The notes: generated by a model from the letters alone, not told the origin. A stretch of 64,000 bases of DNA from an uncultured Bacteroidota bacterium (GCA_937871435.1 CALMQM010000025.1:1-64000); one strand, 5' to 3'. Shown: positions 36,932 to 54,079, numbered from the stretch's first letter. Made by a program: numbers and translations.

Positions 36932-37408
36932 TCAGTAATCAATTTTGTCAGGCTTGGCTATCCAATCCTTAAAAATCTTCAAAGCAGAAGCATCCGGAAG
37001 ATGAATCATTTCAATTTTTCTTTTATCGGGAGCTACGTTTATTTCTTCATAGATAAAAGCATCATCAAAACCAGCCTGCGCGGCTTCGTGTCGGGTATTC
37101 GCATAATATACTTTGGACGGACGAGCCCAGTAGATTGCGCCGAGGCACATCGGACAAGGCTCACAGGAAGTATAGATTTCGCAATCTGTCAGTTGGAAGG
37201 AATTTAAATTTTTACATGCATCTCGGATAGCAACAACTTCCGCATGAGCTGTGGGATCATTGGACGATGTTACCTGATTCGAACCTTTCCCTATGATTTT
37301 ACCATCTTTCACCACCACGCATCCGAAAGGACCTCCTTTGTTTGACTGTGATCCTTCTCTTGATAGTTCAACTGCCATCCTGATAAATTCCGTCGGGTTG
37401 TTTTTCAT
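36932..37408 (-). CDS. guaD: Guanine deaminase (cytidine-deaminase fold, GuaD type)
   Basis: Converts guanine to xanthine, feeding xanthine dehydrogenase. The 158-residue protein has the zinc site of the nucleoside deaminase fold: H55 and catalytic E57 in NDPTAHAEV, C85 and C88 in SCEPCPMCLGAIYWARP. Other segments (FQLTDCEIYT, AAQAGFDDAFIYEEI) match Bacillus GuaD closely from memory and distinguish it from tRNA adenosine deaminase TadA. It is divergent from xdhC across a 220-base region with a palindrome, in keeping with joint purine control. Confidence 0.9.
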   Translation of the reverse strand: MKNNPTEFIRMAVELSREGSQSNKGGPFGCVVVKDGKIIGKGSNQVTSSNDPTAHAEVVAIRDACKNLNSFQLTDCEIYTSCEPCPMCLGAIYWARPSKVYYANTRHEAAQAGFDDAFIYEEINVAPDKRKIEMIHLPDASALKIFKDWIAKPDKIDY

Positions 37409-37467
37409 GTGTATTCGGGTTCAAAAAAGTTTGGGGCTTGAAAATACTATTTTTTAAAATGCTAAAA

Positions 37468-37480
37468 TGTTGTGACAACA
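37468..37480. promoter_or_regulatory. 13-bp perfect palindrome in the guaD/xdhC divergent region, candidate operator
   Basis: TGTTGT-G-ACAACA, a perfect inverted repeat with a GT-N-AC core like many GntR-type operators. It lies about 60 bases upstream of guaD and 114 bases upstream of the xdhC -33 element. No regulator gene is visible in the purine locus, so the binding protein would be encoded elsewhere. Confidence 0.4.
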
Positions 37481-37581
37481 ATTTTTGAATTTAAGAATTT
37501 CAGGCAGGGACAAAATCCGGAGTTTTTATTCTAATACGGTATTTATGTGTCTAATCAAGGAGAACGCGCATTCCTGTTCTC

Positions 37582-37611
37582 TTGGAGGATTCCCAATTAT
37601 AGGTATTTTTG
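37582..37611 (+). promoter_or_regulatory. Bacteroidota-type promoter of xdhC
   Basis: TTG at 37582-37584, a 19-base spacer, then TATTTTTG at 37604-37611, an exact TAnnTTTG match. Transcription would start about 10-12 bases before the GTG start at 37629, giving a very short leader. Confidence 0.6.
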
Positions 37612-37628
37612 AATCTCAATAAAATTCA

Positions 37629-38402
37629 GTGAACAACATCTTTGATACTCTTTCTGCTGCCGGTAAAGACCGGAACAATGTGGCATTGTGCATCATTGTT
37701 CAAACCCGGGGATCTACCCCGAGATCAACCGGTGCCAAGATGTTGGTTTTTCCGGATGGCTCCATTGAGGGAACCATTGGCGGTGGAGAGTTAGAGAAAA
37801 GTGTTATTGAACAAGCATTGAAGGTGTTGAAGAATGGAAAATCATCACTTTTCCGTCACGATCTCCTGCATCAGCACAATATGTGTTGCGGAGGAAGTGT
37901 GGATGTATACATTGAACCTGTTATGAAAAAGAAAAGACTCTATATTTTTGGCGCAGGACATACAGGTCATGCATTGGCCAGACTGGCTGTTCATCTTGAT
38001 TTTGAAATTTTCGTGATAGATGATCGCAAGGATTACCTCGATCAGATTCAGGTAGAAGGAGTGAATAAAATGCATTTACATTATGCGCAGGCGCTCACCG
38101 TTCTTCCGTTTGATGAACAAACCTTTATCACCATCATGACATACAGCCATCCTCACGACAGAGATATCCTCGCATATTGCCTCGGGCAGAAGTATGCTTA
38201 TTTGGGAATGATCGGCAGTGAAAGAAAAGTAGAGATGACTAAGAAAATGTTTGAAGAAGGAAAAGTCGCATCCCGGGAAGTCTTGAATTCCGTTGATATG
38301 CCAATGGGATTGTCCATAGGTGCAGAAACTCCGGAAGAAATCGCCGTAAGTATTCTTGCAAGACTAATTGAGGTGAAAAATTTTTCGATGAAGGAGAAGT
38401 AG
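37629..38402 (+). CDS. xdhC: XdhC-family molybdenum cofactor insertion protein
   Basis: Chaperone that delivers the sulfurated molybdenum cofactor to xanthine dehydrogenase. The 257-residue protein has the XdhC N-terminal domain (VQTRGSTPRSTGAKMLV; GTIGGGELE; MCCGGSVDVYIEP) and the C-terminal Rossmann domain (YIFGAGHTGHALARLA; MIGSERKVEMTKKMFEEG; GLSIGAETPEEIAVSILA). The start is GTG at 37629; an in-frame stop lies 12 bases upstream and the next ATG would remove the first motif. It is the only plus-strand gene of the purine locus. A heptamer repeat array begins 28 bases after its stop. Confidence 0.9.
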   Translation: MNNIFDTLSAAGKDRNNVALCIIVQTRGSTPRSTGAKMLVFPDGSIEGTIGGGELEKSVIEQALKVLKNGKSSLFRHDLLHQHNMCCGGSVDVYIEPVMKKKRLYIFGAGHTGHALARLAVHLDFEIFVIDDRKDYLDQIQVEGVNKMHLHYAQALTVLPFDEQTFITIMTYSHPHDRDILAYCLGQKYAYLGMIGSERKVEMTKKMFEEGKVASREVLNSVDMPMGLSIGAETPEEIAVSILARLIEVKNFSMKEK

Positions 38403-38430
38403 GAGGTATTCCGGGGGAGGGAATTGAGTG

Positions 38431-38570
38431 GTATTAGGTATTAGGTATTAAGTATTAGGTATTAGGTATTAAATATTTGGTATTAGGTATTAGGTACTAA
38501 GTATTAGGTATTAGGTATTAGGTATTAGGTATTAGGTATTAGGTACTAAGTATTAAGTATTAAGTATTAG
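38431..38570. repeat. Heptanucleotide tandem array, 20 units of GTATTAG and variants
   Basis: Exactly 20 consecutive 7-base units. Most are GTATTAG; the rest are GTATTAA (four), GTACTAA (two) and one diverged ATATTTG. Variants are scattered and single units repeat in register, so it is a true tandem array. Non-coding, between the convergent xdhC and DUF6986 genes. Confidence 0.95.
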
Positions 38571-38590
38571 GTGATACTAGGCAGAATTCT

Positions 38591-38668
38591 GTCTTTGTTG
38601 AAGGATGTAAAGGTTGTTGGTTGTTGGTTGATGGTTGTTGGTTAAAAGTCGCTCCAGCAACCAGGAAC
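38591..38668. repeat. Direct repeat copy 1 (94-bp period) with GGTTGWT heptamers
   Basis: Begins GTCTTTGTTGAAGGATGTAA, continues with four heptamers of GGTTGTT/GGTTGAT, then AAAAGTCGCTCCAGCAACC and AGGAAC. The same block recurs 94 bases later with small changes. Confidence 0.9.
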
Positions 38669-38684
38669 ACGAAACACGAAACCA

Positions 38685-38776
38685 GTCTTTGTTGAAGGAG
38701 GTAAAGGTTGTTGGTTGATGGTTGTTGGTTGAAAGTCGCTCCAACAACCATCAACCATCAACCATCAACCAGGAAC
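38685..38776. repeat. Direct repeat copy 2, with added inverted heptamers
   Basis: Starts with the same GTCTTTGTTGAAGGA block as copy 1 and ends in CCAGGAAC, but has extra CATCAAC heptamers on its right side. These are the complement of the GGTTGAT heptamers on its left side. It ends 4 bases before the stop of the DUF6986 gene. Confidence 0.9.
38713..38756. terminator. Perfect 16-bp hairpin inside repeat copy 2
   Basis: Arms 38713-38728 and 38741-38756 are perfectly complementary (GGTTGATGGTTGTTGG and its complement) around a 12-base loop. It lies between convergent genes and could halt transcription from either side, but no T tract follows, so terminator function is only a guess. Confidence 0.4.
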
Positions 38777-38780
38777 CCAC

Positions 38781-40211
38781 CTACGCCCTTCTTCCCTTCA
38801 ATATCCGGTAAAAAGATCTGCTGTGAATTTCATCCAGAGTGAGTCCGGTTACTAATGCTTCTTCTTCGGAGATGGCTCCGGAATTCATTGCCCGCAAAAA
38901 GTAGTTAAGCAATCCTTGTCCTGTTGCAGCATCGTCGAAGATGTCGCCTGAAAGTGTTGCTTGTGCTGCTTTGTTTACAAAGTGAAAAAGTCTTGCTGCT
39001 GCATCTTCATAGCTTTCGAGGAAGAAAGTATAAACAGCTGCATAACGCATCGGTAATTGAGCAGGATTCAAGTCCCATCCCTGGTAAAATCCGTTTCGAA
39101 GAGAATGTGTGGAATGTCCGAAACACAATTTCCAGGCACGGTGTACTACAGTTGTGTTTTCTTCAATCTGTGCCTGAGTAAGGTTGTCACCTTTATGCGG
39201 GCCGATGGGCATCACGTTGGTTGCACCATCGGATAAAAATATTCCTGTCCCTGCCAACGCAACTTTCGTCATGTGATGCGCGAAATCGCATACAGGATGA
39301 TCCATCGTTTGGTATTTGGCGGTGATGTTGCAGGAAGCCGTATAGTCATAGGTTCCGAAATGTGCCGCGATGCAACGACCTTCTCCTGCCATGATTAATC
39401 CACGCAAAGGATTTATTCCATCTTTGTTCATGATAGCCTGAGTAGCTTCGACCATCATTTCCATTTTTAAAGTACCGGCAGCAAGCTTATTTTCTTTTTC
39501 AATTATTTCAAATAATTGTACAAGTGCTTTTACCTGTTCCGGAATGGTAACTTTCGGAAGCATGACAACAAAATTATCGGGCAGTTTACCTCCTGTTTGT
39601 TCGAGTAATGTGCTGAGAAAAATATCCAGTGTGCGTACACCACGTGCTTTTAGATCTTCGGTGAAAGGTTTGATTCGTATTCCGATGAAAGGAGAAATGG
39701 TTTTCTCTTTCATTCCTTTAGCAAGTTCTGTTGCCGCTGTAACTGCTGTTGCATCTTCTTCCGCATCTGGACGATTGCCAAAGCCATCTTCAAAATCTAT
39801 CCGGAAATCTTCTACAGCTTCACGCTGTAGTTTGGCGATCACTTTATTGTAGACTGTATAAGAAAGCCAGGCCGGATGATTTTTACGGTCAGCTTCCGAC
39901 ATACTGTCGAGAGATTTTTTTAAGGAAGCGATTTTGTCAGTCTGAACGGGAAGGGTTTCATGTCCGCTCAATTGCAAAACTCTGGCAAGTACTGTGAAAT
40001 CCGGAGCGTAAGCGGTGAGACTACGCAATGCAATATCTCCCATACGTTTGGTGGAATCTGATTTAAACAGGTTCGCTCCGCCATATACAGTGTGCACCGG
40101 TTGTCTGTCAGGTTTGTCGCCCGGGTATATTTTTTGAAATGAAAGATTCGCTGAATGGAGTTCGCCGAGAATTTTTTCTTTTGCTTCAGTAGGAATGCTT
40201 GTCTTCATCAT
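38781..40211 (-). CDS. CitE/HpcH-like TIM-barrel protein (DUF6986 type), probable lyase or aldolase
   Basis: A 476-residue soluble protein. By eye it is a HpcH/HpaI/CitE-superfamily TIM barrel: the acidic metal or substrate segment FRIDFEDGFGNRPDAEED (D139, E141, D142), IGIRIKPF (near 178, phosphate or carboxylate-binding Arg), FVVMLPKV, and the metal-ligand segment KMEMMVEATQAIM (E251, E255). I recall proteins of this type near ureide genes in other phyla. Here it lies in the purine locus, 378 bases from xdhC. Allantoicase yields ureidoglycolate and then glyoxylate, so an aldol-type reaction on glyoxylate, as in malate synthase relatives, is plausible but unproven. The second codon is also ATG. 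Confidence 0.72.
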   Translation of the reverse strand: MMKTSIPTEAKEKILGELHSANLSFQKIYPGDKPDRQPVHTVYGGANLFKSDSTKRMGDIALRSLTAYAPDFTVLARVLQLSGHETLPVQTDKIASLKKSLDSMSEADRKNHPAWLSYTVYNKVIAKLQREAVEDFRIDFEDGFGNRPDAEEDATAVTAATELAKGMKEKTISPFIGIRIKPFTEDLKARGVRTLDIFLSTLLEQTGGKLPDNFVVMLPKVTIPEQVKALVQLFEIIEKENKLAAGTLKMEMMVEATQAIMNKDGINPLRGLIMAGEGRCIAAHFGTYDYTASCNITAKYQTMDHPVCDFAHHMTKVALAGTGIFLSDGATNVMPIGPHKGDNLTQAQIEENTTVVHRAWKLCFGHSTHSLRNGFYQGWDLNPAQLPMRYAAVYTFFLESYEDAAARLFHFVNKAAQATLSGDIFDDAATGQGLLNYFLRAMNSGAISEEEALVTGLTLDEIHSRSFYRILKGRRA

Positions 40212-40301
40212 TGAAAGATATTGATAGATGCGTATGAATTTTCATTGATCAGCCGGTGAAAATTTTCGGCTAAAATGGAGGGCAAAGCTAATGAAATATG
40301 C

Positions 40302-41012
40302 TTATCGAAGGAGGCGATAATCTTTTAAAAAGTCCGCAAATTTCCCGCTGTTTAACAAGGCATAATCCTGATCCATTCCCGGATGTGTCATCAATTCGAT
40401 GGTGTTGCCATGAATGCGAGGTCTGGCTTCCATGAATTTTTCCAGTCTGGCAAAATAGGGAATATGATTTTCCGGATTTCCGGATTTCATAAAATACTGA
40501 TTGAGTAAAGACCGGTAGACTTGTTTGTGCAAGGCTGAAGGATAAAGCACATTTCCCGCTACACGGATCCGGATATTTCCGAATTTCCTTGCAAGTCTGA
40601 CGACAATTTTCGCAACCGGCCAGTTGGTATGTTTGTGGTGATGAGAATCGATGTGATGAATTTCTATTCCCGAATCAATCAGTTTTTGCATTTGCGCATC
40701 CAGTTCAATTTGCAGTATTTCGAGGTAATGTTTGTCTGCGGAGATTCTACCACCACGATAAAATAATTTTTCACTTCCATATTCATTTCTAAAAGCATCT
40801 GAAACAGGTTTTCCTCCATCAAGATCAAGATGAATACCCAGTTTGGGTTTGGATGGTTGTGATTTATACCAACTGACGGCTTCATCAAATCCGGGCATCG
40901 TGGCCATCATCGAAGACGATGATATCAGTCCTTTCTCATAACAGTCTGTGATTCGATGGTTGGTAAGGGAATTAATTCCCAGATCATCCGCGATGATGAG
41001 AATATTAATCAT
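40302..41012 (-). CDS. ChbG/YdjC-family carbohydrate deacetylase
   Basis: A 236-residue enzyme of the YdjC family that removes N-acetyl groups from amino sugars. The metal-binding motifs are present: IADDLGINS at the N-terminus, LGIHLDLDGG (near residue 58), the His cluster HHIDSHHHKH (near 119) and ELMTHPGMD (near 209). There is no signal peptide, so it works in the cytoplasm. It overlaps the SGNH/DltD-like gene by 8 bases and closes the five-gene dlt-like cassette, which suggests that the glycan being modified carries an amino sugar whose free amine may matter. Confidence 0.85.
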   Translation of the reverse strand: MINILIIADDLGINSLTNHRITDCYEKGLISSSSMMATMPGFDEAVSWYKSQPSKPKLGIHLDLDGGKPVSDAFRNEYGSEKLFYRGGRISADKHYLEILQIELDAQMQKLIDSGIEIHHIDSHHHKHTNWPVAKIVVRLARKFGNIRIRVAGNVLYPSALHKQVYRSLLNQYFMKSGNPENHIPYFARLEKFMEARPRIHGNTIELMTHPGMDQDYALLNSGKFADFLKDYRLLR

Positions 41013-42096
41013 TTGCGGATGTATTTTGAGTTCTGTTAAGATACATCAGGTTGTTGAATGCTCCTGCAAGGTAACGAGTAAATAAAATTGCTCCTTCTTC
41101 ATTCAGATGTGTTTCATCGGATGCATATGCGGAGAGATAAAGTTCCGGATATTTTCTGCTGTCAGCGATTTCGATTCTGTATTGAGGTGGAATTGAAAAA
41201 AACACGGGGAGAATTTCTTTGTATTGCCTTGGATCCGCCTTCGGATTCATTACGAATACAGGATAAATTCCTTTTTCTTTCAGTTGCTTAATCGTTAGGT
41301 TGATTCGGTCCAGGTAAACTTTGTTGCAGGATTTTATCAGGTCCGGATTTCTCTCTATTTCCTCAAAAGCCTGAGCAGAATTTATCGCTCTTGCCGTTAA
41401 CCCGCTTGTGTCCCGGAGGAAATGTTCTCTTCCGCTTTCTTCATGCAGTTCTTTGCCGCTGTAACCCGCGTAAGAATTCCCCATATAGTGGAGAGAATCG
41501 TTCACCATTTTCTGTCGGTTGTGATAATCGTTTCTGTCATTCAGAGAGCCTACATTCAGCAGATGATCAATATAACCAATGCTGTGTGAAGCAATAGCAG
41601 CCAGTTTTACCTGTAACGGTGAAGCGGAGGATAAAATGGATGAGACGGTGAATTTATAATCCGGCCAATTGTACCAATAAATAGCCCTGGCAGTATGCAT
41701 ATTCTGGTAATCGATAATTTTAATTTTTGATAATTCAATGAAAATATATTTTGTTCCGGTTAAATTTTCCTTCATCACATTGTCAAGCATGTAATACACT
41801 TCAGGAAAACCCATCCAGTCTACTCCATAGTTGAATGAACGAACGATTAATCCGGAATCCAGTGAATGGTCAAAAATTTCCGGAACAAATCCTCTTCGTG
41901 TAGAACTGGAACCAATGAACAATAAATTGAATGTGTTCTGATGTGTGCGCAGGTACTCTCTTTTCAAATGCAAGGCATCGAAACTGTATGACCAGGGCAA
42001 ATCATTTTTCGGTGAATGAATAAATTTCCCTACCGTTATGCTCAGAAGCAACATGATCAATCCGAATAATAACAGTTTCCAGAGTAGTCTTGCCAT
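41005..42096 (-). CDS. SGNH/DltD-like extracytoplasmic protein of the acylation cassette
   Basis: A 363-residue membrane-anchored protein: one N-terminal membrane helix (about 5-22), then a periplasmic domain. SGNH-fold residues are visible: nucleophile block LLFIGSSSTRRGFVPEIFD (near 58) and the C-terminal Asp/His block SDETHLNEEGA (near 335). Like DltD and AlgX-type partners of MBOAT enzymes it probably accepts or transfers the acyl group outside the membrane. The ATG at 42096 is preferred over a GTG three bases earlier; the gene starts 3 bases after the MBOAT stop. Identity with true DltD is low by eye, so the call rests on fold motifs and context. Confidence 0.78.
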   Translation of the reverse strand: MARLLWKLLLFGLIMLLLSITVGKFIHSPKNDLPWSYSFDALHLKREYLRTHQNTFNLLFIGSSSTRRGFVPEIFDHSLDSGLIVRSFNYGVDWMGFPEVYYMLDNVMKENLTGTKYIFIELSKIKIIDYQNMHTARAIYWYNWPDYKFTVSSILSSASPLQVKLAAIASHSIGYIDHLLNVGSLNDRNDYHNRQKMVNDSLHYMGNSYAGYSGKELHEESGREHFLRDTSGLTARAINSAQAFEEIERNPDLIKSCNKVYLDRINLTIKQLKEKGIYPVFVMNPKADPRQYKEILPVFFSIPPQYRIEIADSRKYPELYLSAYASDETHLNEEGAILFTRYLAGAFNNLMYLNRTQNTSAND

Positions 42097-42099
42097 CAC

Positions 42100-43527
42100 T
42101 TAGAATTGAGCATAGATAAATCCTTTCCCTCCAAGAATACCAAAGTTGAGAAGGATAAGCGCCGTGATACTATAAATTGCCCAGCGAAGAATTACCGGTT
42201 GAGCGGAGATGTTTGAACTGAAGCTTTGTTTCGGTTGATAGAATTGTAAAAAGAGTAACAGTGCAACTCCCAGGCATGCGAGCATGAAATTAGCGGAATC
42301 CAGACCAAGGCTCAATACTGATACGGTTTTCGACTGATCAAAAAGATGTGTGACTACATACCATCCCTCGCTAACAGTATTTGCTCTGACAAAAGTAAAA
42401 CTCAGTAGTGTAAACAGGAATGTGATGGAGATGGATAATAATTTTGCTGTAGAAGGTTTCAGTTTTTTAAAAAAACTTTTACGCCATTTTACTGTGCGTA
42501 ATTCATAGCCCATAGCCAGACCATTGAGTAATCCCCATGAGATGAATGTCCAGCCTACTCCATGCCACATTCCACTGAGAAAAAAGGTGATGAATATTGC
42601 CAGAACCATTCCCCAGTTCCCCCAATTTCTCCATTGCAAGGAGACAGGGTTGTAAACATATTCGTACAACCATGTGGAAAGAGAAATATGCCATCGTTTC
42701 CAAAAATCTGTGATTGAAGTAGCGGAAAATGGTCTGTTGAAATTGGGCATCATTTCTATTCCCAGAATATGAGAAACACCCAATGCAATATCCATGTATC
42801 CGGAAAAGTCGGCATACAATTGTACCATATAGAATAATCCCGCCATCAACAAGACGGAGCCGCTGAAGTCATGCGGATGTGCATACACTTCACTGACGAT
42901 GATGGAAAGTCTGTCCGCAATCACAAGTTTTTTAATCAATCCCCAGGCAATGAGTTTAAGCCCTGTGGTCGCTCGTGTATAGTCAAATACTTTTGTCTCT
43001 TTGAGCTGAGGTAAAATATTTCTCGGTCTGTCAACAGGTCCCTGGATCAATTTTGGGAAATACAGAAAGTATGATGTGAATACCAGAAAATTTCTTTCGG
43101 CCGGCTCCATTTCCCTTTGTATGTCGGTATTGTATCCTATTGCCTGCAGTACAAAGTATGAAAGGCCAACAGGAATAATCCAATGCAGCACCGGCAGTGG
43201 ATTATCTATGTTCCAGGATTTAAGGAGCGTTGTGAATTCTACATTGAAGAAGTTATAGTATTTGAAAAGAAATAACGCGCCAAGGTTGATCGCGCAACTT
43301 AAAAAGAGAATTGCATTTTTATATCTGGACTGTTCGATCCAGATTCCTGTGAAATAGTTAGCGATGATGAGTGAAAAGAGGATGGCCAATCCTGCCAGAC
43401 TGTAAAACGCACAAAAAATGATGGAACCTGCAAGCAACCACCACAATTGCAATTTTCCTTTCATCCTGAAAAACAGGACTGAAAAGATGAAAAAGAAAAC
43501 CAGAAAAGTAAACGAATTGAATACCAT
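42100..43527 (-). CDS. MBOAT-family O-acyltransferase (DltB/AlgI-like)
   Basis: A 475-residue inner-membrane protein with about 11 helices that moves an activated acyl or aminoacyl group across the membrane. MBOAT signatures are present: YFPKLIQGPVDRPRNILPQL, SITDFWKRWHISLSTWLYEY, and the conserved His block LSGMWHGVGWTFISWGLLNG. It opens MVFNSFTFLVFFFIFSVLFF, the usual start of the AlgI branch. It lies 7 bases after the carrier protein gene and 3 before the SGNH gene, so the four core genes are clearly one operon. Confidence 0.93.
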   Translation of the reverse strand: MVFNSFTFLVFFFIFSVLFFRMKGKLQLWWLLAGSIIFCAFYSLAGLAILFSLIIANYFTGIWIEQSRYKNAILFLSCAINLGALFLFKYYNFFNVEFTTLLKSWNIDNPLPVLHWIIPVGLSYFVLQAIGYNTDIQREMEPAERNFLVFTSYFLYFPKLIQGPVDRPRNILPQLKETKVFDYTRATTGLKLIAWGLIKKLVIADRLSIIVSEVYAHPHDFSGSVLLMAGLFYMVQLYADFSGYMDIALGVSHILGIEMMPNFNRPFSATSITDFWKRWHISLSTWLYEYVYNPVSLQWRNWGNWGMVLAIFITFFLSGMWHGVGWTFISWGLLNGLAMGYELRTVKWRKSFFKKLKPSTAKLLSISITFLFTLLSFTFVRANTVSEGWYVVTHLFDQSKTVSVLSLGLDSANFMLACLGVALLLFLQFYQPKQSFSSNISAQPVILRWAIYSITALILLNFGILGGKGFIYAQF

Positions 43528-43534
43528 AATATCG

Positions 43535-43783
43535 TTAAGCTGTTTCCAGTTTAGTATGGATCATGTTCACCATGTCGCCGACATTTTTGAAACCGAGTAC
43601 TTCTTTCAGCTTAAACTTCACGTTGAAATGTTTTTCTACTTCCACAATCATGGAGGTATGAGTGAGTGAGTCCCATCCGTCCACATCATTAGCCGTTGTA
43701 TCCATCTGCAGGATCACAGAATCGTTTTCAAACACTTTCTTAAAAATTCCTGTGAGCTCGCTGAGGATATTTTGTTTTTCCAT
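43535..43783 (-). CDS. Acyl carrier protein (DltC-like)
   Basis: An 82-residue carrier protein. The phosphopantetheine attachment Ser is S39 in VDGWDSLTHTSMI, followed by the usual helix IVEVEKHFNVKF and KEVLGFKNVGDMVNMI. The D-S-L-T-H form is typical of carriers linked to MBOAT acyltransferases rather than fatty-acid ACP. It is encoded between the adenylating enzyme (100 bases upstream) and the MBOAT gene (7 bases downstream), the same order as in dlt operons apart from the B/C swap. Confidence 0.92.
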   Translation of the reverse strand: MEKQNILSELTGIFKKVFENDSVILQMDTTANDVDGWDSLTHTSMIVEVEKHFNVKFKLKEVLGFKNVGDMVNMIHTKLETA

Positions 43784-43883
43784 TTTTCTATTTGTAATTT
43801 TTCAGGATGATCAAACTTTTGTTCTCATGATGCATTGTCTTTTAAAGCATGGATCAGTTTCACATTCTTCCTTTTGTTTATGA

Positions 43884-45377
43884 TTAGAGGTTGACTCCCT
43901 GCATCAATACTTTTCTGTCTGTTTTTCCATTCGAGTTCAGCGGAAAAATTCCTGTACCAAAAATTTTCGCCGGAAGCATGTAAGAAGGCAATGATTCTTT
44001 CAAATGATTGTTGAGTTCCTCAGTGCTGCCGGAGTAATTTTCAATGAAGAGATAAATTTGCCAAACCGTGGCTTCGTTTTGTCTGGCAATGGCTACAACT
44101 GCATGAGTTTTCATAAATTCCCGGGCGCACACTTCGATTTCTCCAAGCTCCACACGGAAACCCTGGATCTTCACCTGGAAATCAATCCGCCCGCTATAGC
44201 TGATATCACCCTGCGCATCAGCAAAGCACAAATCTCCTGTACGATAATATCTTTTGTTGCGATAATCGAAAAATGCTTCCTTGTTCTTTTGTTCATTTTT
44301 CCAGTATCCCGGAGTAACCTGATCGCCACTCAGACAAAGTTCTCCTTTTTCCATCGCAGCAGCAGGTTGTCTATCTTCTGTAAAAATATCTGCCTGCATG
44401 TTATTCATTGCTTTTCCAATACAAAGAATACCATTGAGACATTTATTTCCGCCATTTCTGTTTATAGGATAAGTAGTACAGAAAATCGTAGCTTCAGTCG
44501 GACCGTAAACATTCAGCAATTCGGCATTGGGCAGGCATTTTGCCCATTCTAATGTTACATCTTCATACAATGCTTCACCACAGAAAAGAGAATATTTCAT
44601 TTTCTCCAAATGTATTTCTTCAAAATACGGACGAAGATGTGTGATGATCGATGGAACCAGCAATGCAAATGTAATTTGATGATCTTCGAGTAAGCGATAT
44701 ACCTGCATGTATTTGATTCCGTCGAAAGGAACAGTATATACACAAGCACCGATGCACAAAGGTGCCATATAACTCATGATCGAAAGATCAAATGTCATAT
44801 CAAACATTTGAATAAACCGATCTGATGAATCAATGTTGAAACCTAATTCGAAAAATGCTGCAAGAAATGATTCCAGATTGTGAATCGTCAGTGGAACTCC
44901 TTTTGGGACACCGGTACTTCCGGAAGTAAACAGGATGTAAGCGTGACGCTCAGGAATTTGTTCGATAAAAGATGGAATCGCACTGATATCATCGCCAATG
45001 CCGGTTTTCACCACCATAGTTGAAGTGGACGAAAAACTGATGGCATCTTCTTCCATTCTGCTGCTCAGCAGGACACTGATTTCCGCTTGTTCGAGGATGG
45101 ATTCATTTCTGCCTGTTGGATGGAGCGGATTAATGGGAACAAATGTATGTCCGCTAAAAAGAATCGCGAATACAGAAGCATACGTCGGCAGGTCATCGTA
45201 AGTAAGAATTCCGATGTTACAATTTCCTTCCAGTCCTTTGCTTTGGATCTGTTGTTGAATCGTTGCCACACAAGCTCCGAATTCAGCATAAGTATAATGC
45301 CGGTCGGCAATGCAAAAAGCAGCCTTGTCCCGTTGAGTCAGAATATTGTGAAGGATGCTCTCCAAAGGGCGATTCAT
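43884..45377 (-). CDS. Amino acid-adenylating enzyme (DltA-like, AMP-forming)
   Basis: A 497-residue adenylation enzyme that would activate an amino or carboxylic acid and load it on the adjacent carrier. Core motifs: YILFTSGSTGVPKGVPLT (ATP loop), LNVYGPTEATIF (A5), GELCLSGDQVTPGYWKN and YYRTGDLCF (A7), GRIDFQVKIQGFRVELGEIE (A8) and NSNGKTDRKVL with the catalytic Lys (A10). The overall size, a stand-alone A domain, and segments such as MFDMTFDLSIMSYMAPLCIG resemble DltA (D-alanine ligase), but I cannot read substrate choice with confidence. First gene of the cassette; upstream is an AT-rich 220-base gap. Confidence 0.88.
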   Translation of the reverse strand: MNRPLESILHNILTQRDKAAFCIADRHYTYAEFGACVATIQQQIQSKGLEGNCNIGILTYDDLPTYASVFAILFSGHTFVPINPLHPTGRNESILEQAEISVLLSSRMEEDAISFSSTSTMVVKTGIGDDISAIPSFIEQIPERHAYILFTSGSTGVPKGVPLTIHNLESFLAAFFELGFNIDSSDRFIQMFDMTFDLSIMSYMAPLCIGACVYTVPFDGIKYMQVYRLLEDHQITFALLVPSIITHLRPYFEEIHLEKMKYSLFCGEALYEDVTLEWAKCLPNAELLNVYGPTEATIFCTTYPINRNGGNKCLNGILCIGKAMNNMQADIFTEDRQPAAAMEKGELCLSGDQVTPGYWKNEQKNKEAFFDYRNKRYYRTGDLCFADAQGDISYSGRIDFQVKIQGFRVELGEIEVCAREFMKTHAVVAIARQNEATVWQIYLFIENYSGSTEELNNHLKESLPSYMLPAKIFGTGIFPLNSNGKTDRKVLMQGVNL

Positions 45378-45599
45378 ACCCCTGCAATACGTTCAAAAAA
45401 AGGCATTGTTTCGGATCAAAAAAGTTTCGAATCAAGCGAAGAAAATACCCTGATTCCGGATGGAGAATTTCGTAAAGTGCAGACAATTGATCTAAACCAC
45501 CAAACCTTTTTAATTCTTCAAAAAAATGAAAATTTTGATAAATTATACTTTAAAAAGTAATAATGATACTATAAAATAATAATAGATAATATAAAAATA

Positions 45600-45941
45600 T
45601 TAACTTCCTCTATACGTAGTAAATCCGTACGGACTTAAAAGCAGTGGTATGTGGTAATGTTTAGTGTCTTTGATTTCGAACACAAGTTGAACGAAAGGAT
45701 AAAAGCTTTGTAATTGTTGCGCTGCAAAATAAGGAGCGGTTTCAAAAGTCATCCTGTACATTCCCGGATCAAGTATAGCATCCGCTTTCAAAAGATCAGA
45801 AATTCTCCCGTCCTGATTGGTGATTCCGTTTCCTAGCATCATCCATTTGTCGCCGGGCAATGATTTTTCGAAAACAATTTTTATTCCGGAAGCAGGAAGA
45901 CCTTTCGATGTATCGAGAATATGTGTTGTGATCTGACTCAT
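45600..45941 (-). CDS. uraH: 5-hydroxyisourate hydrolase (transthyretin-like)
   Basis: Hydrolyses 5-hydroxyisourate, the product of urate oxidation, to OHCU. The 113-residue protein has the family ends: ITTHILDTSKGLPASGI with the active-site His at the N-terminus, HYHIPLLLSPYGFTTYRGS at the C-terminus with the YRGS signature. No signal peptide, so cytoplasmic. It overlaps the OHCU decarboxylase gene by 4 bases and is the last gene of the purine operon. The 3' flank is extremely AT-rich with no terminator seen. Confidence 0.95.
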   Translation of the reverse strand: MSQITTHILDTSKGLPASGIKIVFEKSLPGDKWMMLGNGITNQDGRISDLLKADAILDPGMYRMTFETAPYFAAQQLQSFYPFVQLVFEIKDTKHYHIPLLLSPYGFTTYRGS

Positions 45942-46441
45942 GGGACTAATTTTTGTAAACGTAAATGAGTGATTTTGTGCTGTTCGGCTGCTGCAATTTT
46001 TAATTCCGTTTGTTTATCGTTGTGAATCCGTGTATTAAGGAGTTCAAGCATTTCCGATGCACTCTTTCCTGTGGCACAAACAATAAATATAAATCCGAAT
46101 TTATTTTCATATGCTGCATTCCCTTTTGCCAATGCTTCAAGTACATCCTGTGAAGCACTATTTACGGAAGCTTGTTCGCTGCCCGCAAGCTTACTTGTTG
46201 TCGCGAACTTTTTTTCCAGACTTTTTAAATCTCCGATTTTAGGATGATGTAAAAATGCTTCGAGCCAATCGTTTTCATTGGTTTCGTTCCAGACTTCATC
46301 GGCAGCTTTTAGCAAAGCATCTTTTGTAGCAAATGGCCTGCGTAGGATCATTCCGTTTGTCCATGATGAGGAACCACAACATTTGGTGAATTCCTCTCGA
46401 AGTACATTCGCATCCAGCTGATTCAATTCGGCAATTGTCAT
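45938..46441 (-). CDS. uraD: OHCU decarboxylase
   Basis: Decarboxylates OHCU stereospecifically to S-allantoin. The 167-residue helical protein carries the catalytic His in EAFLHHPKIGD, the conserved Ser/Glu segment LAGSEQASV, and FGFIFIVCATGKSASEMLEL followed by KITHLRLQKL. The ATG at 46441 is chosen because MTIAELNQLDANVLREEF matches the usual start and it lies just after the allantoicase stop; a longer frame from 46468 would overlap that gene. Coupled to the hydrolase gene by a 4-base overlap, so the two enzymes after urate oxidase are made together. Confidence 0.93.
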   Translation of the reverse strand: MTIAELNQLDANVLREEFTKCCGSSSWTNGMILRRPFATKDALLKAADEVWNETNENDWLEAFLHHPKIGDLKSLEKKFATTSKLAGSEQASVNSASQDVLEALAKGNAAYENKFGFIFIVCATGKSASEMLELLNTRIHNDKQTELKIAAAEQHKITHLRLQKLVP

Positions 46442-46448
46442 ATCCTGT

Positions 46449-47462
46449 TTATCTGCTGATATTTCCAAAGCATCTCAGTCGGCTCACTCCTCCGTCCGGA
46501 TAAATAAATAAACGAATGTGTGAAACGTTATCATGCACGAGAATTTCTTTTTCAAAAAAATGTTCGTGATCTGCCTGCAATTTTTGTTTGGGTAAAATTT
46601 CTTTCCAGACGATTGCAGACTGACCGGGATCTTTTTCCTGTTCCTTCGTCATGGTACAGGCTTCAATCGAACAGGTGTCGGGATAATTACCTTTGAAATG
46701 ACATGTATCTACAAGCATTTTTGAGATTTTCCCGGGATGAGCAAGGCGGATAATTACCCAGTCGCGGTTGTTGGGTGTTCTGTTTCTTTTCGTTTCCCAT
46801 CCATCACCCATATTGATTCCTCTTCCGGGCATGAGGAGATTATCCATGTGAGAAAAAAACATGTCGTTACACAAGATCGCTTTGGCGCCATTCAATGCGG
46901 AAGCGAGATCAATCACGTCGCCTGCTTTTACAGCGTTCCAGTCTTTCTGAACTTCTCCATATACTTTCAAACGGGCGACTCCTCCATCAGGATAAATATG
47001 AAGCTTCACATGTGTGAACAATGTTGCATTTGTACATGCGTAAAAATTCTGACTTCCGGGATTCAATGGTGATTTGGGTAAAATTTCTTTCCACGTCACA
47101 TCAGATGATGTCGGATCAGTTCCTGCAGGAAGAGTACATGCTTCCACAGAAGCGTAAGGAGGATGATTGCCAAGAAAGAAATTCGTATCGATATCAAAGC
47201 CGTGTATGATGCCGGCTGCACCTAACTGAACAATGCACCAGTCATGCCCTTCGACACGTTTCCGCCGCGATTCCCAACCATCCATCCATTTTCCACGGTC
47301 TGTATATTTATCCGCGATAAATATACCGCGTCCGGGCTTAATCAGGTTTTCTTTTTCGGCAAAAAAATCATCTGTACATGCAATTGCTTTCGCGCCCAAT
47401 CTATCCGATGCAAGGTTGATCAGCTGAGTAAATGCCGGGGCATTCGTACTTTCTTTTATCAT
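46449..47462 (-). CDS. alc: Allantoicase
   Basis: Hydrolyses allantoate to ureidoglycolate and urea. The 337-residue protein shows the two-fold internal repeat of the family: GAKAIACTDDFFAEKENLIK with GRGIFIADK and GWESRRKR, then GAKAILCNDMFFSHMDNLLM with GRGINMGDGWETKRNR. Each half also ends in an Asp/Asn-rich jelly-roll segment (HGFDIDTNFFLGNHPPYASV; LVDTCHFKGNYPDTCSIEAC). It overlaps the allantoinase gene by 4 bases. No ureidoglycolate lyase or urease gene lies in the window. Confidence 0.95.
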   Translation of the reverse strand: MIKESTNAPAFTQLINLASDRLGAKAIACTDDFFAEKENLIKPGRGIFIADKYTDRGKWMDGWESRRKRVEGHDWCIVQLGAAGIIHGFDIDTNFFLGNHPPYASVEACTLPAGTDPTSSDVTWKEILPKSPLNPGSQNFYACTNATLFTHVKLHIYPDGGVARLKVYGEVQKDWNAVKAGDVIDLASALNGAKAILCNDMFFSHMDNLLMPGRGINMGDGWETKRNRTPNNRDWVIIRLAHPGKISKMLVDTCHFKGNYPDTCSIEACTMTKEQEKDPGQSAIVWKEILPKQKLQADHEHFFEKEILVHDNVSHIRLFIYPDGGVSRLRCFGNISR

Positions 47463-48814
47463 GGTTTTCTTAAAATCACATTTCCTGTGGGCGAAGATAC
47501 TAAGGAACCTTTATCGTAAACCTTGATTCCCCTTACAAATGTTTGTTCCACAAGTCCGCTCAGCATTTGTCCTTCATATGGAGTAATCGGATGACGGAAA
47601 CGAATGTTACTCCGGGATACCTTCAGTTTTTTTTCCGGACTCCAGATGACGATATCTGCATCAGCTCCGATTTCAAGTCGTCCTTTGTTTTTCAATCCAA
47701 GAAAATCGGCAACATTTGTACTCATCAGACGTGAAATTTCAGCTACGTCAGTTTTGTCGCGCAGTGCGAGTGTCCAAACAATGGCAAGAGAAAACTGGAG
47801 AGATGATATTCCGCCCCAGGCATCTCTGAGATTTCCACTTTCCAGTTCCTTAATATCCGGAGGAGCAGGAGAGTGATCCGTGACAATAAAATCAAGCGTT
47901 TTGTCTTTCAATGCGGCCCAGAGCAATGCATTGTTTTCTTTTTCCCGAATAGGCGGTGTGCATTTGAAACGTGTGTCACCATCCGGAATACTTTCGGCAT
48001 CGAAAAAAAGATAATGCGGACAAGTTTCCACAGTCAAAGGAATTCCTTTGGATCTTGCAGCACGAATTTGAGGAAGAGAATCAGAAGAAGACAAATGAAC
48101 AATATGAACATGCACGCCGGTTTTTTCACTCAAGGTGATGAGCGCTTTGATCGCTTCATCCTCCCAGGAGCGCGGACGGGAATTCAGAAAGGCTTTGTAT
48201 GAATACGAATCTTCTTCAAAAGCTTTTTGTCCTTTGTGTTTAGAGTCGAGTTCAGCGTGTGCCAGTAACGGTACATTGTGTTTTTTTAAAATCGGTGCTG
48301 CCTTTTCAAGATCTTTCACACTTGCATTTGGAAAATCATCAATTCCGGAATGCGTAAGAAATGCTTTGAATCCAAGTACTCCGGCATTAATCAAAGGCTC
48401 CAGTTGAGAAGTATCGCCGGAAACAATTCCGCCATAAAATCCGCAGTCGACAAACAATTTACCTTTCGCTGCTTCCAGTTTCTCATTCAGATTTTTCACA
48501 CTGGTTGTAACGGGAGTAGAATTAAGCGGCATGTCAACCAGGGTGGTAATCCCTCCTGCAGCCGCAGCGCTGGTAGCTGTCTCAAATCCTTCCCATTCTG
48601 TTCTTCCGGGTTCATTGATATGCACATGACAGTCAATCAATCCGGGCATGACAACAGAATCTTTTGCCTCTTCAAATACTTTTGCGGACTTAACATCTCC
48701 TTTTCCATCCACGATGTCAATAATTTTTCCTTCGTGAATATATAACGTGGCGTCTTTCAGCTCTCCATGTATAAGAACACGTTTACTGTGAATGGCAAGA
48801 TCCGGGATTGACAT
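47459..48814 (-). CDS. allB: Allantoinase (cyclic amidohydrolase)
   Basis: Opens the hydantoin ring of allantoin to give allantoate. The 451-residue TIM-barrel enzyme has the metal site residues of the dihydroorotase superfamily: GLIDCHVHINEPGRTEWEGF, the carboxylated Lys region GFKAFLTHSGID (near 152), LLAHAELDSK, HIVHLSSSDSLPQI, CPHYLFF, KCTPPIR and VTDHSPAP. The R-T-E-W-E-G-F string favours allantoinase over dihydropyrimidinase. It begins 62 bases after the urate oxidase gene in the same operon. Confidence 0.94.
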   Translation of the reverse strand: MSIPDLAIHSKRVLIHGELKDATLYIHEGKIIDIVDGKGDVKSAKVFEEAKDSVVMPGLIDCHVHINEPGRTEWEGFETATSAAAAGGITTLVDMPLNSTPVTTSVKNLNEKLEAAKGKLFVDCGFYGGIVSGDTSQLEPLINAGVLGFKAFLTHSGIDDFPNASVKDLEKAAPILKKHNVPLLAHAELDSKHKGQKAFEEDSYSYKAFLNSRPRSWEDEAIKALITLSEKTGVHVHIVHLSSSDSLPQIRAARSKGIPLTVETCPHYLFFDAESIPDGDTRFKCTPPIREKENNALLWAALKDKTLDFIVTDHSPAPPDIKELESGNLRDAWGGISSLQFSLAIVWTLALRDKTDVAEISRLMSTNVADFLGLKNKGRLEIGADADIVIWSPEKKLKVSRSNIRFRHPITPYEGQMLSGLVEQTFVRGIKVYDKGSLVSSPTGNVILRKP

Positions 48815-48876
48815 TTGTTTGAATAAAAATTCGTGTAGTACTTCCTGCTTTTATCAACAGGCATCACAAGGTACGT

Positions 48877-50211
48877 TTATCTGGTGGATTCCAGTGCAGC
48901 GATGTTAGCTCCCTGATTAATCCAGTCACCAATCAGCGCACGTTCCTCTTCCGTGATACCGGTTTTGTTTGCCTGCGGCATTGTCTTGGTTTGAACAGCA
49001 CGGACAAGAATTCGTTGTGCCATCTTCTGGATTTGTTCCGGAGTATCAAACATGACACCTCCGGGAGCAATTTTCTGTACATCATCAGTTGGATGCGCGG
49101 AATGACAACTCTGACAACGTGACTGGAATATCGGCATTACTTCAGTGAAGGAAACCGGGGCCGAAGATGTACGCGTACTTTTTACCGGAGCAGTTACAAT
49201 GACCAAAGCGATCAAAGCAACTGTCGCGAAAGGAATCATCCAGACAGCATGCTGACCTTTTTCATGCATATTGATGTAATGTCTTACAGCGACACTGGCA
49301 AGAGTGAGTCCACCTAAAACTGCCCAGTTAAAAGCATTCCCATAAGTAGTAGGGAAGTGGTTACTGATCATCACAAAGATGACAGGCAAGGTCATGTAAT
49401 TGTTGTGCAGTGATCGAAGGCCTGCAAATTTTCCAAGGTTTGGATCGAGGGGCTTTCCTTGTTTGGCAGCTTTCACCATCGCTTTTTGTGATGGAATAAT
49501 CACGAAAAAAACATTGCCTGCCATGATTGTTCCGATTAAAGCTCCCACATGAATGAATGCGGCACGACCGCTGAGAAAATGACTGAGAAAATAAGCGATG
49601 AAAATAATAATCGTTCCGCCGACCAGTGCGAATGATTTCTTTTTGTGAATTAATGGTGTGCTGCAAAGGAAGTCATACAAGAACCATCCTCCGATAAGTG
49701 TCCCGCTTCCAATCAGGATTGCTGTCGCAGAGGAAATTTTTGCGACAGAAGGATCCACCATAAATGACTTCGCGTTGAAATAATATACGAGCATCAACAG
49801 AATAATTCCTGTCAGCCAGGTGAAATAAGCTTCATATTTAAACCAATGTAATTTTTTAGGAAGCTCACCGGGAGCGATCTTGTATTTTTCTACATAATAA
49901 AATCCGCCTCCATGAATTGCCCAAAGGTTCCCTGCAAGTTCATCACGGAGATTTTCAGTACGGTTCAAACTATTCTCAAGGAAAATAAAATAGAACGACG
50001 CACCAATCCAGGAAATACCGAGTATCACATGCGCCCAGCGGAAAAGCAGGTGGATCCAATCCATCACATGAGCACCAAGACCGTAATGATCGACAATCTG
50101 ATACACACCAAAGCCGATGAAAATAGCAACAGCCAACCAGGCGATAACTTTTCTGTAAAGCCTGATTTCTTCAATCGATTCCTTTAACTCCTCAATCTCG
50201 TGTTGATCCAT
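48877..50211 (-). CDS. puuD: Membrane-bound urate oxidase fused to cytochrome c (PuuD type)
   Basis: Oxidises urate to 5-hydroxyisourate. The 444-residue protein has about eight membrane helices (residues 20-320, opening MDWIHLLFRWAHVILGISWI, the urate oxidase N-terminal family) and a C-terminal periplasmic cytochrome c domain with a standard CXXCH (C366, C369, H370) and a distal Met in TKTMPQANKTGIT. Unlike soluble uricase it should pass electrons to the respiratory chain and avoid making hydrogen peroxide. It replaces uricase in this operon: no soluble urate oxidase is encoded here. Confidence 0.92.
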   Translation of the reverse strand: MDQHEIEELKESIEEIRLYRKVIAWLAVAIFIGFGVYQIVDHYGLGAHVMDWIHLLFRWAHVILGISWIGASFYFIFLENSLNRTENLRDELAGNLWAIHGGGFYYVEKYKIAPGELPKKLHWFKYEAYFTWLTGIILLMLVYYFNAKSFMVDPSVAKISSATAILIGSGTLIGGWFLYDFLCSTPLIHKKKSFALVGGTIIIFIAYFLSHFLSGRAAFIHVGALIGTIMAGNVFFVIIPSQKAMVKAAKQGKPLDPNLGKFAGLRSLHNNYMTLPVIFVMISNHFPTTYGNAFNWAVLGGLTLASVAVRHYINMHEKGQHAVWMIPFATVALIALVIVTAPVKSTRTSSAPVSFTEVMPIFQSRCQSCHSAHPTDDVQKIAPGGVMFDTPEQIQKMAQRILVRAVQTKTMPQANKTGITEEERALIGDWINQGANIAALESTR

Positions 50212-50236
50212 TTCGGGATAATATGATGCTGAACGA

Positions 50237-52549
50237 TTATTGATTTTTCTTCTTTTTGATTTCTTCTATGGAAAGAAGAATCACTTCATTGGTTGCAGGC
50301 AAACGGAAAGATGGTTCGTATGCATGATCTCCAACAGCGGATATAGCATCCTTAATTGCCAACCATGAACTGAAGGCAAGCATTAGTGGAGGTTCCGCGA
50401 CAGCTTTACTCTTTCTTATAGCATTCGGATTCGGAGCGTTCTGCAGGAGCTGAACCCTGAAATCTTCCGGTACATCCTGCACCGATGGGATCTTATATGT
50501 ATCCGGTGAATGGTTCAGCAAATTGCCTTTGCTGTCCCATTTAATTTCTTCTGTCGTACACCAGCCAAGACCTTGTATAAATCCTCCTTCAACCTGACCA
50601 ATGTCCAGACCTTCATTGATGGAATCTCCCACATCATGCAGAATATCCGTCCGTAAATGTCTTACATATCCGGTAAGAGTATCGAGTAGAACTTCGCTCA
50701 CAGACATGCCGAACGCATAATAATTGAATGGCTTTCCCCAACCTTTTTGTTTGTCCCAGCCAATATTTGGAGTGGCATAAAATCCGGTAGCACTTAAACT
50801 TACCTGTTGCAAATTGGCCAAAGTCATTGCCTCCGCAAATGAAATTTTGCGCTCAGGATATTGATTATCGAAAATAGTATTGTCTTTTATCAGAATATCT
50901 TTTTCAGCAGACGCTTCAGCAGGATAGCTTTTACTGAATTCGGAGGCCATCAGTTTCACAATTCTTGCGCGAAGAATATCTATCGCATTTTTTACGGCCA
51001 TCCCGTTCAGATCTGTCCCGGCTGATGCAGCCGTAGCGGAGGTATTCGGTACTTTAGATGTATTGGTCGCGTTCACTTTGATACGATCCAGACTTACGCC
51101 CATTTCAGAAGCAGCGATCTGCGCGATCTTTGTGTTGAGACCTTGTCCCATCTCTGTACCTCCGTGATTTACGAGGATAGTTCCGTCCTTGTAAATGTTT
51201 ACCAATGCTCCGGCCTGATTCAGAAATGTTGTGGTAAATGAAATTCCGAATTTTACCGGCGTGAATGCCAGTCCTTTTTTATAAAACTCATTTCGCGCAT
51301 TGAATGCATCAACTTCTTTTCTTCGTTGATAGTAATCAGAAGAAAGCGACAATTCTTCAAACAATACAGGCAAACGGTTCAATTCTACTTCTTGTCCATA
51401 GTGTGTGATTGCACGTTCACCGGTTTCATAGAAATTGATTTTCCGTATATCAGCGGAATCTTTTTTCAGGAAACGAGCGATTCGGTCAATCACAGTTTCC
51501 ATACCCGCCACACCTTGTGGTCCGCCAAATCCACGGAATGCTGTGTTAGAAGGAAGATTTGTTTTATACGCTTTTCCAACAACAGTCATGTTTGGAATGA
51601 AGTAAGCATTGTCGGCATGCAGCATTGCTCTCTCAAGAATCGCGATACTCAGATCTGTTGCACAACCGCCATCCGCATGTTGTTCGAATTTCAACGCGTC
51701 AATTTTTCCTGCATCATCGAAACCAACTTCGTAGTGAATAAAGTAAGGATGTCTTTTTCCGGTCATCTTCTGATCATCATCCCTGAACAAACGAATAGAT
51801 ACAGGTCTCCGTGTTGCATGCGCAAGCAATGCTGCCCATGCAGCTGTATGGTTGGCTTGTGTTTCCTTTCCTCCGAATGCTCCGCCCATTCTTCTTGTCT
51901 CCACAACAATTTCGTTTTTGGGAAGCCCCAAAACTTCAGCAACGATTGCCTGTGTTTCGGAAGGATGTTGTGTAGATGAATAAATATTCATTTCATGACC
52001 TTCACCGGGAATAGCAAGACATGACTGTGTTTCCAGATACCAGTGTTCCTGGGCTCCGGTGCGGACTTCTCCGCTGAGAATATGTTTGGATTTTTTGAGT
52101 GCCGCATCCGCATCTCCTCGTTGCATAGTACGGGGAGGGGCGAGGAGTGTATTTTTTTGTATAGCTGTTTCAAGATCCAGGATTGCGTCCAATGGTTCAA
52201 ACTCAATACGGATGAGCTTTTCCGCGGCTCTTGCGCATTCAGCATTTTCAGCTGCAATGAGAACGATGGCTTGCCCTACACAAATCACTTCTTTGTCGGC
52301 CAGACAAGGTTCATCGTGAACTACAGGTCCGAGTTGGTTTTCACCGGGAATATCTTTTGCCAGAACGATTGCATGCACACCGGGAACAGAAGAAGCAGTG
52401 GAAATATCGATGGATTTTATTTTCGCATACGCATGCGGACTATACATAATGTGTCCGTACAACAATTGTGTATTGACGAGAATATCGTCGATGTAAACGG
52501 ATTGCCCGCTGACATGTTTGCCGGCGCTATCGTGAGGGATATTTTTCAT
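50237..52549 (-). CDS. xdhB: Xanthine dehydrogenase, molybdopterin-binding subunit
   Basis: Catalytic subunit of 770 residues for hypoxanthine and xanthine hydroxylation to urate. Molybdenum site motifs are in order: MGGAFGGKETQANHTAAW (near 226), NTAFRGFGGPQGVAG (near 340), GGTEMGQGLNTKIAQIA (near 452), and the catalytic Glu in KSKAVAEPPLMLAFSSW near the C-terminus. No signal peptide; cytoplasmic. It begins 21 bases after the iron-sulfur/FAD subunit gene and 25 bases before the urate oxidase gene, so urate is produced and consumed by products of the same operon. Confidence 0.95.
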   Translation of the reverse strand: MKNIPHDSAGKHVSGQSVYIDDILVNTQLLYGHIMYSPHAYAKIKSIDISTASSVPGVHAIVLAKDIPGENQLGPVVHDEPCLADKEVICVGQAIVLIAAENAECARAAEKLIRIEFEPLDAILDLETAIQKNTLLAPPRTMQRGDADAALKKSKHILSGEVRTGAQEHWYLETQSCLAIPGEGHEMNIYSSTQHPSETQAIVAEVLGLPKNEIVVETRRMGGAFGGKETQANHTAAWAALLAHATRRPVSIRLFRDDDQKMTGKRHPYFIHYEVGFDDAGKIDALKFEQHADGGCATDLSIAILERAMLHADNAYFIPNMTVVGKAYKTNLPSNTAFRGFGGPQGVAGMETVIDRIARFLKKDSADIRKINFYETGERAITHYGQEVELNRLPVLFEELSLSSDYYQRRKEVDAFNARNEFYKKGLAFTPVKFGISFTTTFLNQAGALVNIYKDGTILVNHGGTEMGQGLNTKIAQIAASEMGVSLDRIKVNATNTSKVPNTSATAASAGTDLNGMAVKNAIDILRARIVKLMASEFSKSYPAEASAEKDILIKDNTIFDNQYPERKISFAEAMTLANLQQVSLSATGFYATPNIGWDKQKGWGKPFNYYAFGMSVSEVLLDTLTGYVRHLRTDILHDVGDSINEGLDIGQVEGGFIQGLGWCTTEEIKWDSKGNLLNHSPDTYKIPSVQDVPEDFRVQLLQNAPNPNAIRKSKAVAEPPLMLAFSSWLAIKDAISAVGDHAYEPSFRLPATNEVILLSIEEIKKKKNQ

Positions 52550-52570
52550 TGGATGTTTTGCCGGATAAGC

Positions 52571-54010: not shown

Positions 54011-54079
54011 AGATTTGAATTGCTTCAAATTTAAGGAAAGAAATGAGATGAAGAACAGTCAAGTACTCAGGAATAAAAT

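Follow-up and report, generated by a model that had tools for sequence, protein, structure and literature searches.

Which acyl group, and from which donor, would be transferred to the cell surface by dlt-like genes in a phylum that lacks teichoic acids? The question is raised by a cassette of five genes in a stretch of 64,000 nucleotides (the window) from an uncultured Bacteroidota bacterium (GCA_937871435.1 CALMQM010000025.1:1-64000). A preliminary description, made from the sequence of the window alone, placed the five genes on the minus strand at 40302-45377 and read them as a dlt-like surface aminoacylation cassette with a sugar deacetylase. The coordinates and the strand were found to be correct, and four of the five proteins were assigned to Pfam families, the exception being the SGNH-type protein. 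Transcription runs from the adenylating enzyme through the carrier, the MBOAT and the SGNH-type protein to the YdjC deacetylase. The source genome had no match to PF04464, the CDP-glycerol glycerophosphotransferase (teichoic-acid polymerase) family that makes poly(glycerol/ribitol-phosphate) chains, while a Bacillus subtilis control was positive.

The interpretation that we favor, and consider reasonably likely, is a carrier-fed MBOAT-SGNH acylation pathway, in which a Dlt-type activation module feeds a pair of the PatA/AlgI type. The cassette probably loads a small amino acid on the carrier and moves it via a tyrosine across the inner membrane to a sugar polymer of the envelope. This interpretation is supported by the tight operon with the expected families and by the linkage of the adenylating enzyme to an MBOAT, which recurs across genomes of the class.

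Activation module and transfer pair

Among curated NCBIfam families, the adenylating enzyme scored highest against the general amino-acid adenylation domain (298 bits), followed by DltA (280 bits), without reaching either cut-off; the curated scores of the DltA equivalogs were not reached (280.5 bits vs. 476, and 266 vs. 560). The carrier, in which Ser39 was confirmed, scored 24.5 bits against NCBIfam DltC, short of the cut-off of 68. Two genes of the phosphopantetheinyl-transferase family are present in the source genome.

The substrate pocket of the enzyme was read at ten positions (D197, L198, M201, L239, L264, C266, V290, I298, F299 and K485), the columns being placed from what we take to be the motif positions and not from a solved complex. 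The resulting code is DLMLLCVIFK, compared with DLMVVCTVAK for Latilactobacillus DltA in the same alignment. It is repeated exactly in L015, L016, L064, L065, L066, L067, L068 and L070 (L-numbers designate loci examined and G-numbers genomes of the class). In Bacillus cereus DltA, Asp197 binds the amino group of the substrate, Cys269 selects its enantiomer and Lys492 binds its carboxylate (PMC4176424); the residues aligned with them in the cassette enzyme are Asp197, Cys266 and Lys485. Because these residues match those that bind D-alanine in DltA, the substrate is likely to be a small amino acid, perhaps D-alanine, although D-alanine itself is a reasonable but unproven guess from the predicted pocket. 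Activation of only a fatty or aryl acid, which the preliminary description had named as evidence that would overturn it, is unlikely since all three residues are kept. In L075 (5984-9118), two tandem adenylating enzymes with differing pocket codes precede one carrier.

The MBOAT matches DltB structures by sequence (2e-21) and by fold (Foldseek 4e-10, from a modest model with a predicted local distance difference test score, pLDDT, of 64), and scored 144.6 bits against NCBIfam DltB, where the cut-off is 375. The histidine block that had been described was confirmed as His280 and His322. What had been overlooked is the C-terminus, FIYAQF (470-475), an instance of the FxYxxF motif that serves as acyl shuttle in PatA-type MBOATs. 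The window contains 1,936 open frames of 20 residues or more, and the cassette MBOAT alone has this ending. The motif was found at the C-terminus of all 31 intact MBOATs collected, one of which has Tyr in place of the final Phe. DltB of a real dltXABCD operon is without the motif, which is carried there by DltX (FIYNEF). For PatA, it has been proven that the motif tyrosine carries the acyl group; in the Dlt pathway, the tyrosine is acylated on the separate microprotein DltX (PMC12148441). A single origin of the carrier-linked MBOATs was considered and not retained, the tree being unresolved at depth. Locus L067 (8421-11400) has a tandem pair of MBOAT genes behind a single carrier.

The fourth protein had no Pfam match even at E<=1 and likewise no NCBIfam family. 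However, the Ser and Asp/His blocks noted earlier were borne out by an alignment of nine sequences, in which Gly63, Ser64, Ser65, Asp328, His331 and Asn333 do not vary, in keeping with SGNH blocks I and V. Furthermore, an hhalign comparison of its profile with that of another SGNH family from the cassettes gave a match at E 6e-10. No relation to DltD was detected by hhalign against L. curvatus DltD (probability 0.3%). When the profile of nine relatives was compared with Protein Data Bank (PDB) sequences, only chance matches were obtained, and the second SGNH family gave none. An AlphaFold model from a 4-sequence alignment was discarded as unusable (pLDDT 40). The sequence evidence for an SGNH-type protein is good but not proof, and this protein is likely to be the final transferase. 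In five other loci (L083:4367-5320, L084:9112-10104, L085:9322-10311, L086:3619-4587 and L090:4011-4988), the protein in the SGNH slot has GPCEPLW in place of GxS and no Asp-x-x-His; these are possibly cysteine enzymes or degenerate SGNH proteins. The description of the cassette as dlt-like thus holds for an aminoacylation-type system with a predicted extracytoplasmic acceptor, but the labels DltB and DltD do not hold, as the MBOAT has its own shuttle tyrosine and the fourth protein is unlike DltD.

From the observed families, motifs and recurring gene linkage, the following steps are proposed. The enzyme would activate an amino acid of small size, D-alanine or one comparable to it being the most likely, and would transfer it to the carrier, on its phosphopantetheine arm. 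Optionally, an acyltransferase of the GNAT family encoded elsewhere may N-acylate the carrier-bound amino acid. By homology to PatA and DltB/DltX, the MBOAT would then accept the acyl group at the cytoplasmic face, where the charged carrier would deliver it, onto Tyr472 of its own FIYAQF tail. The tail would pass it to Ser65 of the SGNH-type protein on the periplasmic side, which would in turn esterify a hydroxyl on a polysaccharide that is exported or part of the envelope. For the YdjC protein, an accessory, trimming or preparation of an N-acetyl sugar is a possible role.

Recurrence in the class and a sixth component

In the survey set of 395 genomes of the class, the adenylating enzyme was found in 27 at a threshold of E<=1e-90. 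At least 18 of these, as counted manually from the locus tables, have an MBOAT gene only a few genes away from the enzyme, and three of the nine genomes without a nearby MBOAT have loci that end at a contig edge. The enzyme is patchy in the source organism's own family (2 of 11 genomes). The source genome has two further MBOAT-SGNH pairs, and since both are without adenylating enzyme and carrier, the donor module is specific to the cassette pair.

In many relatives, a GNAT protein of 215-225 residues is encoded between the adenylating enzyme and the carrier. The window cassette is without it, and no recognisable remnant was found in the 100-bp gap between these two genes. In L069 (1920-2819), the GNAT is fused to the carrier in one protein of 299 residues. 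Moreover, the source genome has a GNAT gene on another contig (C48, 1394-2125), the product of which shares 59% identity with the cassette GNAT of L064 and 51% with that of L015; because it lies outside the window, a likely component of the system was invisible to the preliminary description. When the GNAT was searched for at E<=1e-25, 13 of the 15 genomes that have it were among the 27 with the adenylating enzyme, compared with 1.0 expected (hypergeometric 3e-15, a value uncorrected for kinship and inflated by genomes in which the two genes adjoin). The two co-occur though unlinked in G000, G088, G117 and G269, and in the remaining two GNAT genomes, the contig with the GNAT also encodes weaker relatives of the enzyme. 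Additionally, an O-antigen/capsule-type locus of Segatella copri encodes a related adenylating enzyme (39%) together with a carrier, an N-acyltransferase of the AAC(3) type and an alanine racemase. The same GNAT family was seen beside distinct adenylating enzymes (code DLFFLCLIAK or near) in the non-Bacteroidota loci L021, L024 and L026, which are without an MBOAT and carry possible carriers of roughly 90 residues.

The GNAT in the cassettes of relatives, together with the copy elsewhere in the source genome, makes an N-acylated aminoacyl group possible in this system. The carrier-bound amino acid may often be N-acylated or, alternatively, the GNAT may use the charged carrier as donor. We put forward, only tentatively, a third donor logic for the acylation of envelope polymers that would place N-acyl-aminoacyl esters on Bacteroidota surface glycans: a carrier-bound amino acid would be N-acylated by a dedicated GNAT, transferred by way of the MBOAT shuttle tyrosine and delivered by the SGNH-type protein.

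The possibility was considered that the GNAT is unrelated and that free D-alanyl or glycyl groups are esterified, as in a plain Gram-negative analogue of dlt, so that the amino group stays free and the negative charge of the surface is lowered. This is a sub-case of the favored pathway, lacking the optional N-acylation step. The DltA-like Asp197, Cys266 and Lys485 are in keeping with it, as are the alanine racemase that adjoins the related enzyme in S. copri and the lack of a linked GNAT in several cassettes (L018, L019, L073 and L080) as well as in that of the window. However, the co-occurrence of GNAT and adenylating enzyme, the fusion in L069 and the retention of the gene in the source genome argue against free esters, which we judge to be somewhat unlikely.

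A further explanation is that the charged carrier feeds a GNAT or other cytoplasmic transferase that aminoacylates an amine, such as that of an amino sugar. The MBOAT-SGNH pair would independently use acetyl-CoA for O-acetylation of the same polymer, the genes being co-located because of the common polymer. In every other MBOAT-SGNH pair with a fused FxYxxF shuttle, the donor is held to be acyl-CoA, without a carrier (PMC12148441), and the enzyme occurs with an N-acyltransferase and a carrier but no nearby MBOAT in L072, L016 and S. copri, where the N-acyltransferase is of the AAC(3) type. This division of donors is nevertheless unlikely, considering that the carrier and MBOAT genes of the window are 7 bp apart with no GNAT in the operon, and that several of the 18 class genomes in which the enzyme is linked to an MBOAT have no linked GNAT (L073, L080, L083-L086 and L090).

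Layout, genomic setting and acceptor

The features of the cassette are given in Table 1. The genes had been described as separated by 3- to 8-base spacings or overlaps. This is true only in part, since the first junction measures 100 bp; the carrier and MBOAT genes are 7 bp apart, the MBOAT and SGNH genes abut (0 bp), and the SGNH and YdjC genes overlap by 8 bp.

Table 1. Genes of the cassette and the gap between the first two, in window coordinates
Feature	Coordinates	Strand	Basis
Adenylating enzyme, DltA-like, 497 residues	43884..45377	-	Pfam AMP-binding 3e-56
Gap of 100 bp between adenylating enzyme and carrier; site of the GNAT gene in relatives such as L065	43784..43883	.	Junction measurement
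Carrier protein, 82 residues, Ser39 phosphopantetheine site (DGWDSL)	43535..43783	-	Pfam PP-binding 1.4e-5
MBOAT, 475 residues, His280 and His322, C-terminal FIYAQF with Tyr472	42100..43527	-	Pfam MBOAT 2.7e-25
SGNH-type protein, membrane-anchored, 364 residues, Ser65/Asp328/His331	41005..42099	-	Conserved residues and profile match
YdjC/ChbG-type carbohydrate deacetylase, 236 residues	40302..41012	-	Pfam YdjC 4.8e-35

The YdjC protein matches a chitooligosaccharide deacetylase structure (6e-11), and its gene is the only one of the family found in the source genome. The preliminary description suggested that the deacetylase prepares an amino-sugar acceptor. It is a real YdjC member, but no counterpart was found in the 54 other loci examined, which makes it weak evidence for such an acceptor. 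A role in the pathway was accordingly demoted, and the deacetylase is probably a local accessory.

The cassette splits a purine-catabolism cluster, a point that the preliminary description did not contain. The purine-to-glyoxylate cluster extends over 36932-54028 and encodes xanthine dehydrogenase, a PuuD-like urate oxidase with a cytochrome-type domain, an amidohydrolase, allantoicase, OHCU decarboxylase, HIUase, XdhC and a deaminase. The deaminase (36932-37408) is 64% identical to that adjoining the cassette of G022 (L065:11515-11988), and no other purine gene is common to the two. A link between the purine cluster and the cassette was judged incidental, because only the deaminase recurs, beside one relative.

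Clues to the acceptor come from the relatives. The L018 cassette lies inside a polysaccharide locus with a flippase, glycosyltransferases, EpsG and a pyruvyl transferase. As read from sequence, a glycosyltransferase adjoins the cassette in L068 and a sugar transferase in L020. In L074, L076 and L079, the partner protein has a GDS motif and LysM-like repeats, read by eye, which suggests that peptidoglycan may be the acceptor there. That the enzyme and carrier instead supply a small secondary metabolite or lipid, the MBOAT acylating a lipid and not a glycan, is very improbable: the MBOAT superfamily includes lipid acyltransferases and the cassette sits in a purine-catabolism cluster rather than a glycan locus, but the best match of the MBOAT by both sequence and fold is DltB, its acyl-shuttle tail and adjoining SGNH-type partner mark polymer acylation, and relatives are found in polysaccharide loci or with LysM-like partners.

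Several points weigh against the carrier-fed pathway. The pocket agrees with that of DltA at only half of the ten positions, so that D-alanine is not assured, and the SGNH assignment is based on motifs and a profile match without a usable structure model. No glycan genes flank the window copy of the cassette. Moreover, acetyl-CoA may still be the donor of the MBOAT, and the carrier may serve a different enzyme.

Comparison with known systems

The Dlt pathway of teichoic-acid D-alanylation (DltX-DltA-DltB-DltC-DltD) and the cassette both combine, in one operon, an adenylating enzyme, a carrier, an MBOAT and a membrane-anchored SGNH-type protein, and the key Asp, Cys and Lys of the pocket are common to both. 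In contrast, no DltX microprotein was found in a scan confined to the open frames of the window, and the shuttle tyrosine is carried by the cassette MBOAT itself. The cassette proteins fall below the curated cut-offs for DltA, DltB and DltC, the SGNH-type protein is unlike DltD, the source genome is without the PF04464 polymerase, and YdjC is an additional gene. Dlt-like operons have been reported from a small number of other Gram-negative bacteria, Bordetella among them, on which the literature searches returned no papers.

With the PatA-PatB pair of peptidoglycan O-acetylation and the AlgI-type pairs that act on alginate and cellulose, the cassette shares an MBOAT with a C-terminal FxYxxF beside an SGNH-type protein. 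Those pairs use acetyl from acyl-CoA without an adenylating enzyme or carrier (PMC12148441), whereas the cassette operon has both and is predicted to draw on them for its donor. AlmEFG, which adds glycine to lipid A in Vibrio cholerae, is likewise a Gram-negative system with a DltA-like enzyme and a carrier for envelope aminoacylation (PMC3783018, PMC12930378); however, the final transferase AlmG is of the LPLAT type and acts on lipid A, while the cassette has an MBOAT-SGNH pair. The S. copri locus resembles the system in its related enzyme, carrier and N-acyltransferase but has no nearby MBOAT.

Literature searches, which left out most subscription papers, did not turn up a cassette of this kind in Bacteroidota, and the pairing of a Dlt-type front with an O-acetylation-type back was not described in the mechanistic literature accessible to search. 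Repeated in many Bacteroidia, the cassette looks like the missing combination of a carrier-fed donor and a fused shuttle. If this is true, the groups that can be placed on Gram-negative surface glycans would include, besides acetyl, those of the aminoacyl or N-acyl-aminoacyl kind. By the tests made, the cassette resembles Dlt on its cytoplasmic side and PatA-PatB in transfer, without full membership of either system.

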